Shown here: piece after piece, positions 40,189-47,641 of the stretch
Numbering within the stretch: the first letter of the stretch is position 1
How the letters are laid out: every line of letters begins with the position of its first letter
Assembly (NCBI GenBank): GCA_021787475.1
Contig: JAJYLW010000001.1
Coordinates: 1 to 64,000 of the forward strand
Source of the DNA: Actinomycetes bacterium
GTDB lineage: Bacteria > Actinomycetota > Thermoleophilia > BMS3ABIN01
Length of the DNA: 64,000 nt
Direction of reading: 5' to 3'
Position numbers and translations under genes: made by a program
The notes under the pieces: model-generated
The model's database searches: none
Told to the model about the DNA's origin: nothing
Seen by the model: only the letters and a program-made list of their open reading frames with translations

Positions 40189-40266
40189 CTAGGGGAATTC
40201 CCTGATGTACAAATATCACCAAAAGACTTAACATAAGGTGTTTTGTTAAAGGGGCAGCATGGGAGC

Positions 40267-41757
40267 ATGGGTATAATGGGATCTTTAGAAAGCTTTTCAT
40301 GGAAGAAATTCGCGGGATTTGCGGCCAGTTTTGTCTTTGCGCTGCTACTGGCGCTGATGTTGATAATGGCGGCCGGCAGCCAGCCCGCGGGCGCCGCCAC
40401 GGCGGCGTATTCGGCGTACAGCATTACCGGCACCGGCGGCGACTGCGCCGTTCCCGGCAACGGCTGGGGCGCCTGGGACGCCTATACCAGCACCTGCACG
40501 CTACAGGCCGACATTGCCGTTTATGGCGCCAACGGGATCAATATCAACAGCGGCAACGTGACACTGAATGGCAACGGCCATTTGCTTTCCGGGAACAATG
40601 CCGCGAATACAAATGGCGTTTATCTTTCCGGCATGAACGGCGTAACCATTAAGAATCTGACGGTTGAACATTTCTATCACGGCATCGAGCTTGCCTCTTC
40701 CGGCAGCAATACCCTTACGGGCGACAACGCCAGCTCAAACAACAGCTCCGGAATTTACCTGACCGGCTCCAGCAACAACATCCTTTCAGACAATACCGCC
40801 AATTCGAACAGCGGCGGATCGAACTCGGGCAATGCCGCCGGGATCGAGCTGGAAAGCGGATCCAACGGCAATACGCTGTCGGGAAACACTGCCAACAACA
40901 CCAACGGCGGCAACTGGATGACGAGCATGTATGTGGCCGGAATCTGGATCGGTTCTTCGGGCAGCAACAGCCTCACGAACAATACCGTCATCAACAATCA
41001 GGGCTCAAACCTGTCCTGGTTCGATGTCGCCGGAATTTATCTCAACTCGTCCAGCAATAATATACTGTCAGGCAACACCGCCAGCATCCCCGGCTACAAT
41101 GGCTTCGGCGAGAGCATTGGCCTCTGGCTGACTTCTTCAGCCAATGGCAATACGCTTTTTGGCAACACCAGCTCCAGCAACCAGTTCGGGATCTATCTGA
41201 ACTCCTGCAGCAATAACCAGGTCTACCACAACAGCTTCCTGAACAATTCGACGGTGCCGGCGCGCGTTTATGGCGGCAGCGGCAACCTCTTTAATCTGCC
41301 CGCGCCCACCGGCGGCAACTACTGGAGCAACTGGTCGACCCCCGATGCCAACAGTGACGGTTTTGTCGACAGCCCCTATGTATTTACCGGCGGCCAGGAC
41401 AACCTGCCGCTGACAAGCCCGCCGGCAAGCGGCAAGCCGCCCCTGACTCTGGACCTCCCCAGCCCTTCCTGGGCTTCGCTGTCTGATTACCAGGCCGGCG
41501 TACTCTCCGTGACCTGGATGGTCAACAACACCGGGGCTGCCGAGGCTTGGTCAGTCCAGCTTACCGGCAGCAGTAACACAAATGGGGTTACGGCTTCAAC
41601 AGCGCTGCCTGTCTATATTGGTTCTGGCGACATCCTCCCGGGCGCTTCGGGCTCGGTGACTTTGAAATACAGCGTGCCTGCGGGAGTGAGCGCCTGGATA
41701 TCCACGCTTGCCGGCAGCGCCGAAGACGGCTTGGGGACGGGTTATTCTTACCCGTAG
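40267..41757 (+). CDS. Secreted NosD-type right-handed beta-helix repeat protein (track ORF from 40243)
   Basis: Signal peptide (KKFAGFAASFVFALLLALMLIMAAGSQPAGA); repeated SSNNILSGNTAN / GSNSLTNNTV / SANGNTLFGNTSS units. Confidence 0.9.
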   Translation: MGIMGSLESFSWKKFAGFAASFVFALLLALMLIMAAGSQPAGAATAAYSAYSITGTGGDCAVPGNGWGAWDAYTSTCTLQADIAVYGANGININSGNVTLNGNGHLLSGNNAANTNGVYLSGMNGVTIKNLTVEHFYHGIELASSGSNTLTGDNASSNNSSGIYLTGSSNNILSDNTANSNSGGSNSGNAAGIELESGSNGNTLSGNTANNTNGGNWMTSMYVAGIWIGSSGSNSLTNNTVINNQGSNLSWFDVAGIYLNSSSNNILSGNTASIPGYNGFGESIGLWLTSSANGNTLFGNTSSSNQFGIYLNSCSNNQVYHNSFLNNSTVPARVYGGSGNLFNLPAPTGGNYWSNWSTPDANSDGFVDSPYVFTGGQDNLPLTSPPASGKPPLTLDLPSPSWASLSDYQAGVLSVTWMVNNTGAAEAWSVQLTGSSNTNGVTASTALPVYIGSGDILPGASGSVTLKYSVPAGVSAWISTLAGSAEDGLGTGYSYP

Positions 41758-45552: not shown

Positions 45553-45702
45553 TTAATTGTGGCCGTGCGGGTTATCGTGGTCGCAGGGGCCGCCGGCGTG
45601 GACATCGGGGCCATTGATGCTGCAATTCCAGTATGAATGAACGAAGGTAATCTCTTTAATGTTGCCCAGCTTCTCCAGCCGCGGTTTTTCAAAACTTTCC
45701 AC
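45553..45702 (-). CDS. Candidate RiPP precursor with lasso-type leader motif (49 aa, GTG start)
   Basis: aaGGGGGAagtagccaaaGTG; VESFEKPRLEKLGNIKEITFVHSYWNCSINGPDVHAGGPCDHDNPHGHN*. FEKPRLEKLGNIKEIT fits [Y/F]xxPxLxxxGxxxxxT. Confidence 0.5.
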   Translation of the reverse strand: MESFEKPRLEKLGNIKEITFVHSYWNCSINGPDVHAGGPCDHDNPHGHN

Positions 45703-45796
45703 TTTGGCTACTTCCCCCTTGTAATTCAAATCCTTGACGACCTAATGTCCTGTTTTCGCCACTCAACCAATAGTCCCTTCCCGGGGCCACAAAAAC

Positions 45797-45820
45797 ATAT
45801 CGGCCGAAACCGGCCGATAT
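45797..45820. terminator. Palindromic hairpin between the GH gene and the small-peptide gene
   Basis: ATATCGGCCG-AAAC-CGGCCGATAT, perfect 10-bp arms. Confidence 0.55.
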
Positions 45821-45913: not shown

Positions 45914-47641
45914 TTAGGACAGGCCATAAAGCACGTTTTTCAGTTCGTAGTATGCCGGCTTCTTCGAGCCATCATAACGGATAACGCCGAAGAAGTTTTC
46001 TATCGTGCTTGTGTCGGTGCCAAGGTCCTGATAAGAGTAAAAGAACAAGCCCGCCACCCAAGGCTCGTTGCTGATCTGATGCATTGCATCCTCAAACTCA
46101 GCCGCCTGAAGCAGTTCATCGCCGCGCCAGGTTGGCCCATTCGTAGGACTGCCGAATTCGGTGGCCCAAATCTGTTTGTTACTGTCACCGTAGTTGACCA
46201 TGATGCTACGGATGCTGGGCGTTGAATCACTCATGGCGTACCATCCCGTCCAGGAAGGTCCGCTGGGCAAATATGGAAACGAATAGGGGTGGTAACCAAC
46301 CGCGTCCATATAATTCTTGGCGCCGTTCTGATACATCGCCGTGAGAAAGTCGCGTGGGTCAATATTCCCGGTTCCGACCGTGGGATCGCTTAAACCGGCG
46401 CTAATTACGGTCGCTTGCGGATCAACCTGCTTGATACTGGCATAACTTTGTTTTAGCACATTGGCGTATGCAACAGGGTCGGGCGCCGGCTGCCAGAACT
46501 GGGTAATGTTCGGCTCATTCCAAATCTCCCAAGTGTGAATTCCCATAGGAGCATAGTGAGCAACCGCCGCGGCAGCATAAGTCGCAAACTGGGACGGATC
46601 TGCCGGCTCGCACTTGATGCTTGTTGTGCAGTTGGCCGGTCTCGCCCATGCCGGCGTATACGTCAGCAGGGGAACGAGCTGGATGTTATGTCTGTTTGCT
46701 GCAGCCACGATCCGGTCAAAAACCGGCCAGTTGTACGATCCTGGACCATCCGGCTGCAACTCGCTCCAGGCCATGTCAAAACGGACCCAGCCAACCCCAA
46801 GACTTTCGATATCAGACATCGCATTTTCCAGATCTTGATCGCTCAGGTTGGCAAAATTGTCGCCCACAGAAAAGCCTATCTTCTTACCCGAAGTCAGAGT
46901 TTGCAGCAGTTGCCCGCCCACGCCGCTGCTTGTGGTTGCCCCCATCATCTCGCGGAAAACCGTGACATTTGAAGGCACCTGAAACTGAAGTGCAAACGTC
47001 GCCGTCGCGCCGGCGGCCATATTGCCGATATTAATCGCAAGCGGCGTAACCAGGCTGGCGCCAAAGCTGGCTGATGCACTGGTGATGGCGACATTATTGA
47101 CTTCAAATGGACTTGTATTCTTTATTGTATTATTTATTGTCAGTCGCCGCTGCAAGTAATCGCTATAATTGTCCCATAATGCAACTGCAGAGTCAACGGA
47201 CAAGTCCTGATTTATAATCTGGTTAGTGGTCTGGACGGGTTGAAAACTCCAGCTTACCTGTGTCGTGCCAGAGCTGTCCGTGACTGCGCCGGATACGTCA
47301 TATATCTGGCCCCACTGGATGCCGGAAACATCACAGTAGTAATCAGTTTTATTAACCGTACACCCGGAGAGGACGGCGCCGTTATCAATGCTAAGTGTTC
47401 CACTTGTAAGAGCGTCTTCAGATCTGGTGACCACTCCAACAACGCTGGGGATGCCGCTTTGAAAGCCTGAAGGCCAGCTAATTACAGAAGGGCCGCTGGC
47501 GGCCGCTGCACCGTTATTTTCAAACGACAAAGGCGAGAAACTGACCGCGATTACCGCTGCAACGAACAGAACTAGCCACCAAAAACGCCTGCTTATAAAG
47601 TTACGAATGGCACCGCGAACTGGCATTCCCTTGAAACCCAA
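45914..47641 (-). CDS. Secreted GH39/PslG-like glycoside hydrolase with N-terminal Ig-like/DUF11-like region
   Basis: GVGWVRFDMAWSELQPDGPGSYNWPVFDRIVAAANRHNI...HTWEIWNEPNITQFW (acid/base E)...QIWATEFGSPT (nucleophile E); N-terminal TM. Confidence 0.82.
   Translation of the reverse strand: MGFKGMPVRGAIRNFISRRFWWLVLFVAAVIAVSFSPLSFENNGAAAASGPSVISWPSGFQSGIPSVVGVVTRSEDALTSGTLSIDNGAVLSGCTVNKTDYYCDVSGIQWGQIYDVSGAVTDSSGTTQVSWSFQPVQTTNQIINQDLSVDSAVALWDNYSDYLQRRLTINNTIKNTSPFEVNNVAITSASASFGASLVTPLAINIGNMAAGATATFALQFQVPSNVTVFREMMGATTSSGVGGQLLQTLTSGKKIGFSVGDNFANLSDQDLENAMSDIESLGVGWVRFDMAWSELQPDGPGSYNWPVFDRIVAAANRHNIQLVPLLTYTPAWARPANCTTSIKCEPADPSQFATYAAAAVAHYAPMGIHTWEIWNEPNITQFWQPAPDPVAYANVLKQSYASIKQVDPQATVISAGLSDPTVGTGNIDPRDFLTAMYQNGAKNYMDAVGYHPYSFPYLPSGPSWTGWYAMSDSTPSIRSIMVNYGDSNKQIWATEFGSPTNGPTWRGDELLQAAEFEDAMHQISNEPWVAGLFFYSYQDLGTDTSTIENFFGVIRYDGSKKPAYYELKNVLYGLS

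Follow-up and report, generated by a model that had tools for sequence, protein, structure and literature searches.

Dispersed RiPP precursors with lasso-type leaders in a family of Thermoleophilia, and an HprK-RRE-B2 operon that may process them in trans

Precursors of lasso- and LPP-type RiPPs have been described within compact, patchily inherited gene clusters, and we know of no cellular role for them. In the prochlorosin system, many dispersed lanthipeptide precursors with diverse cores are served by one synthetase, ProcM, acting in trans. LPPs are linear, Ser-phosphorylated peptides whose biosynthesis involves an HprK kinase, an RRE and a leader peptidase with no cyclase; the archaeal-type signal peptidase LppS, an NTP-transferase, an ABC exporter and one to three precursors lie in one cluster, and these peptides, which have variable C-termini, are reported only from Bacillota (PMC13381572, Nat Commun 2026). 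The kinases of paeninodin-type lasso peptides (PadeK, ThcoK, PsmK) use His-Lys-Asp-Asp catalytic residues (PMC9266682), and lasso peptides in general carry Thr at leader position -2, with cleavage one residue after this Thr (PMC6856326, PMC10885120). Here we describe a peptide family that shares features with each of these systems and differs from all of them.

The peptide is encoded by a small ORF in the window, by which we mean the whole 64,000-nt stretch of DNA analysed (Table 1). Its translation is VESFEKPRLEKLGNIKEITFVHSYWNCSINGPDVHAGGPCDHDNPHGHN, with GTG at 45702 and the stop codon at 45555-45553 of the minus strand, exactly as claimed in the first-pass annotation, and the Shine-Dalgarno-like stretch before the GTG is likewise present. 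The lasso-type leader motif YxxPxLxxxGxxxxxT that had been recognised in the peptide also holds, in the form FEKPRLEKLGNIKEIT, with Phe where the motif has Tyr (position 4). Such a short frame could be spurious or decayed and resemble a lasso leader by chance; indeed, its match to the NCBIfam leader model NF033521 ('lasso_leader_L3') is on its own below threshold (15.1 bits, cut-off 19). However, a conserved orthologue, paralogues in the host genome and a family-wide occurrence refute this explanation, which we regard as scarcely credible, and confirm that the ORF is a real gene. The orthologue, in a related genome (G002, at L179:3146-3292, minus strand), shares with the window copy the neighbouring PslG-like pair, NosD-type protein and MMPL protein. 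Its ATG aligns with the window GTG and lies immediately 3' of an in-frame stop, which supports the GTG as the start. The ORF DNA is 93% identical between the two genomes while the 300-nt flanks are only ~50% identical, so the frame itself is conserved. Ten codons differ (three synonymous and seven nonsynonymous changes; NG86 dN 0.067, dS 0.216, with low power given so few changes), and a single differing position falls between V21 and C40 of the core.

Table 1. Coordinates of features in the window
Feature	Position	Strand	Evidence
C-terminal CT domain of the NosD-type beta-helix protein (40243-41757)	41437..41754	+	AlphaFold2 pLDDT 96.3
Precursor peptide gene, subfamily II (49 aa + stop)	45553..45702	-	Translation, syntenic G002 orthologue, family-wide occurrence
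Predicted core, residues 21-49 (VHSYWNCSINGPDVHAGGPCDHDNPHGHN), WxCS and Cys/His/Asp-rich tail	45556..45642	-	Alignment, core positions
Candidate phosphorylation site, Ser28 (residue 8 of the core)	45619..45621	-	Ser conservation
Predicted leader, residues 1-20 (VESFEKPRLEKLGNIKEITF), motif YxxPxLxxxGxxxxxT	45643..45702	-	Alignment, NF033521, motif PMC6856326
Shine-Dalgarno-like AAGGGGGA, ~10 nt upstream of GTG	45713..45720	-	Sequence
Intrinsic-terminator-like hairpin ATATCGGCC-GGTTTC-GGCCGATAT + GTTTTTG, between PslG-like gene and peptide	45797..45820	-	Sequence
Exported PslG/GH5-like hydrolase upstream of the peptide gene; the two are syntenic in G002	45914..47641	-	PF00150 E 1.3e-6; 81% identical in L179
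Ig-like CT domain, internal copy within the PslG-like protein	46916..47206	-	74.5 bits

Searching the host genome with the window peptide and then with its best paralogue revealed at least ten related loci, scattered over the assembly. Identical copies sit at the start of contig C10, the end of C22 and the start of C27, and repeats of the family probably broke the assembly at these points. A first search of 60 relatives with a nine-peptide alignment matched only the 19 genomes of one Thermoleophilia family, every one of which (19/19) carries 5 to 12 copies. When 299 genomes of the class were searched with a more diverse alignment, the peptide was found in 0 of the 280 genomes outside this family. 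Named carriers of canonical peptides (for example MAVKKSDHREPYAKPELVKHDNLKELTFECSNWSCSVTVPPAP) are MAGs mostly labelled Thermoleophilia, Gaiellales or Actinomycetes, together with Bacterium BMS3Abin01. Extending the search to the phylum added no more than two weak matches outside the family, both with a different core; these are tandem or single small ORFs (L230:5859-6127 and L231:723-839) whose lasso-like leader (YQKPELIEHENLNEVTKG...) is followed by a short Gly/Asn tail, and no maturation enzymes were recognised on their short contigs. Homologues with a conserved leader, which had been proposed as a check on the original claim, are therefore present both in the host genome and in its relatives.

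Two subfamilies can be distinguished among the ~100 distinct peptides, a collection drawn from draft MAGs that includes fragments. Subfamily I has a nearly invariant core, ECxxW(Q/S)CSVxVPPxP. In subfamily II, to which the window peptide belongs, a leader ending ..LGNIxxITF is followed by the core xxxxW(N/T/S/Q)CSxxG and then by a tail rich in Asp, His, Cys, Ser or Gly. An alignment of 18 diverse members showed Pro7, Asn14, Thr19 and Ser28 (window numbering) to be invariant, with Tyr/Phe4 and Trp25 near-invariant. The leader motif is thus common to the family, and 10 of 18 members match NF033521 (best E 3.7e-4), although the window peptide scores below cut-off and the cores are not those of lasso peptides. 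Ser is found nine residues after the leader Thr in 100 of 104 peptides and with a shorter spacer in the other four, and is retained even where the adjacent Cys has been lost (WGLS, WTVS, WASS, LQSS). If the leader is removed one residue past Thr, the rule for lasso peptides, B2 would cut the window peptide after Phe20, with Thr19 at -2, which makes this Ser core residue 8; it occupies the place where the ring acid of a lasso peptide would sit.

Two PqqD proteins are encoded in the host genome, as judged by a PF05402 search. The one on contig C7 (70 bits) lies in an operon between an HprK-like kinase and a B2 peptidase and is closest to lasso RREs (NF033536), the nearest PDB structures being the lasso RREs TbiB1 and TfuB1. 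The peptidase is of the transglutaminase-like C96 lasso B2 type: it scores above cut-off in PF13471 and NF033537, and Cys83, His135 and Glu147 are invariant in 17 aligned orthologues. Its structure model (pLDDT 82.7, good in the core) has mostly transglutaminase-like PDB matches, none of them significant. The kinase (HprK1) keeps HAA, GxSGSGKST and DD in 15 of 15 aligned orthologues, which together supply the His-Lys-Asp-Asp residues of paeninodin-type kinases (PMC9266682). This operon adjoins hemW, divergently, in 14 of 19 genomes; it is interrupted by a contig end in one genome (G015), and HprK and B2 lie ~20 kb apart in another (G003). Two family genomes have no B2 match and one a sub-threshold match, in assemblies that are 69-92% complete. 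A DUF2079 membrane protein gene follows or overlaps the B2 gene at L148:7017-8906 (G004) and L157:6144-8243 (G003). Neither an exporter beside the operon nor a radical-SAM maturase linked to it was found. We rejected the second PqqD, on contig C19, as a partner for the precursors. Its neighbours are a truncated radical-SAM frame, fragments of HprK and an SpI peptidase that has a peptide of its own, which together look like a decayed separate cluster, although one canonical peptide is found 8 kb away. Thus, the first-pass annotation was right that the window holds no RRE or B2, but the peptide is not an orphan, since both are encoded on C7 and the gene is merely unclustered with them. As the precursors lie apart from the operon, only the leader motif and co-occurrence tie them to the enzymes; we consider processing of the peptides by the RRE and B2 highly probable.

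Could the product nevertheless be a lasso peptide, cyclised by an AsnB-type amidotransferase encoded elsewhere in the family genomes? Leader, RRE and B2 are all of lasso type, and relatives have at least two AsnB paralogues, one of which has its glutaminase Cys2 replaced by Ser (the tandem amidotransferases of L158-L161, in polysaccharide loci). In the host genome, however, PF00733 gave only two short, weak matches and none at E below 1e-6, although in an assembly of 36 contigs the absence of a cyclase could reflect a gap. Most other family genomes encode two AsnB-type proteins, and the four loci that we read lie in polysaccharide/EPS clusters away from the operon. The proteins scanned fit the EPS/AsnB models TIGR01536 and TIGR03108 best; against the lasso-cyclase model they score 195-342 bits, below its cut-off of 525. 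The highest score (342) belongs to a third AsnB found in one genus (L133), which we keep as a remote candidate cyclase. Moreover, an Asp or Glu at core positions 7-9 occurs in only 4 of 82 cores, and the window peptide, as had been noted from its sequence, is among the 78 that have none. With no recognised cyclase and no ring acid, we rejected an identity as lasso peptides, a reading that we now hold to be very unlikely, and for the same two reasons a linear product is highly probable. The earlier view of an atypical, non-canonical RRE-dependent precursor gains support on each of the three counts on which it could have failed: homologues have kept the leader, the ORF is better conserved than its flanks, and the genome encodes an RRE and a B2.

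Of the described systems, LPPs are the closest in composition, with an HprK-type kinase, a discrete RRE, a YxxP leader, a dedicated peptidase, no macrolactam cyclase, and a linear, Ser-phosphorylated product, such as we predict here. Here, however, the peptidase is a lasso B2 rather than an archaeal-type SpI (a separate SpI and an RRE remnant lie on C19), and the 5 to 12 precursors are scattered, have a conserved core and belong to an actinobacterial host, whereas LPP precursors are clustered and come from Bacillota. Paeninodin-type systems likewise have an HprK-like kinase with His-Lys-Asp-Asp, B1, B2 and Thr at -2, but no cyclase or ring acid is recognised here, the candidate Ser is internal (core 8) whereas that of paeninodin is C-terminal, and the precursors are unlinked to the enzymes. 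A single enzyme set that would act in trans on many unlinked precursors is reminiscent of the prochlorosins, from which the present system differs in its conserved core and in its chemistry. A search of open-licence PMC articles, where absence is weak evidence, returned neither an account of this arrangement from Thermoleophilia nor a cyclase-less B2 system with dispersed precursors.

Phosphorylation of the conserved Ser is probable, if less so than leader processing. A second kinase, HprK2, adjoins peptide genes in 7 of 7 family genomes of the phylum sample, and intact copies retain the His-Lys-Asp-Asp residues, with one Walker A variant (L064). In the HprK2 loci that we read, the gene order is CT protein (one ending in the Ig-like domain described below), peptide, lipoprotein, HprK2, CT protein, peptide (L021:515-2248; equivalents in L069, L080, L189 and L061). 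Twelve of the 13 lipoproteins at these loci end in W..GG(I/M)x(I/V)(T/V)VP and the remaining one in WGEIEIQVPPSP; by eye, the tail W..GGIxITVPxxP appears to resemble the peptide core WxCSVTVPPxP.

The peptides of subfamily I were frequently found just downstream of genes for exported proteins that share a C-terminal Ig-like domain of ~104 residues, which we term CT. Upstream sequence was sufficient for 73 peptides of subfamily I, and in 51 of these the start lies 39-117 nt (in one case 233 nt) downstream of the gene for a CT-ending protein, compared with 1 of 25 in subfamily II, which thus serves as the family's own control; domain boundaries, the subfamily regular expression and the 260-nt cut-off were set after the first loci had been seen, and the two proportions are descriptive. 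Such an upstream partner is missing from some 22 copies of subfamily I and from every subfamily II copy except one. Partnerless subfamily I copies recur at fixed sites, after an EF-G-like gene (L185, L186, L199) and, by eye, after a ribonuclease HII-like gene (L176, L193), and one follows a Rieske/cytochrome b pair (L188). By eye, the CT proteins carry N-terminal export signals, and their bodies include beta-propellers, rhodaneses, beta-helices and cytochrome-like CxxCH proteins. The host genome has ~19 CT domains, six of which are followed by a peptide gene. AlphaFold2 predicts an Ig-like sandwich (pLDDT 96) with no significant PDB match, the best being adaptin-ear domains at TM ~0.69, a likeness at the level of fold only; in the scanned proteins the domain has next to no Pfam or NCBIfam coverage. 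A functional partnership between subfamily I peptides and CT proteins is a tentative proposal at this stage. Alternatively, the peptides could be precursors of a conserved molecule, either a PQQ-like cofactor or a pheromone-like signal, with many gene copies for dosage or regulated expression. The nearly invariant subfamily I core (ECxxWQCSVxVPPPP), unlike the variable cores of antimicrobials, would fit such a role, but the tight pairing with exported Ig-like proteins and the variety of PslG, NosD, cytochrome and rhodanese hosts would not be expected, nor does the operon have a linked radical-SAM maturase; we therefore think this improbable.

The window copy lacks such a partner arrangement. 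No peptide gene follows the NosD-type protein at 40243-41757. The PslG gene upstream of the peptide is separated from it by the intrinsic terminator, with a 10-bp stem, so that co-transcription of the two is unlikely and the window copy is probably monocistronic, on a transcript of its own. With this terminator in between, and with other copies in unrelated contexts, the association with PslG and an EPS locus that had first been proposed is incidental. The peptide had also been considered a metal-binding secreted peptide, in which the Cys/His/Asp-rich tail of subfamily II would chelate metal after leader removal and phosphorylation would be secondary or absent. Tails rich in Asp, His and Cys are found in most subfamily II members at unconserved positions, as expected of a composition-driven chelator, and the window encodes a cation-efflux protein (PF01545, 36977-37900). 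Yet this gene is 8 kb distant, some tails (L168, L170, L173) are Ser/Asp- or Gly-rich without His, and chelation leaves subfamily I and the invariant Trp and Ser unexplained. As an account of the family, metal binding is thus unlikely.

We therefore favour, on balance, a joint reading in which the window peptide is one precursor of a dispersed RiPP family, trimmed by RRE and B2 and phosphorylated at Ser8 in trans to give a linear product; taken as a whole, it is marginally less secure than phosphorylation by itself. The single C7 RRE (PqqD/B1) would recognise the leader in trans, and HprK, or its paralogue HprK2 beside some precursor genes, would phosphorylate the near-invariant core Ser in W-x-C-Ser8. 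B2 would next cleave one residue past the leader Thr, and the product would stay linear, that of the window being VHSYWNCpSINGPDVHAGGPCDHDNPHGHN. For canonical copies (ECxxWQCSVxVPPPP), the product may be a ligand or partner of the upstream CT protein at the cell surface. The subfamily with His/Asp/Cys tails, including the window peptide, would be transcribed alone, may be secreted, and is possibly a metal-binding branch. A fuller scheme is more speculative still than the partnership itself: operon-modified peptides would be bound by the Ig-like domain of the adjacent exported protein, with WQCSVTVPPPP acting as an added beta-strand or ligand, and the lipoprotein with the look-alike tail would compete with or mimic the peptide.

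To conclude, in a family that is largely uncultured and often subsurface-derived, almost all genomes with good coverage have the operon in conserved, mostly single-copy and syntenic form. Such dispersed precursors would be missed by searching solely near RRE, B2 or cyclase genes. With 5 to 12 dispersed, core-conserved precursors per genome, most of them paired with exported proteins, the system suggests a housekeeping role related to the cell surface, and the conserved operon together with its paired precursors may be a means of learning what purpose phosphorylated RiPPs serve in the cell.
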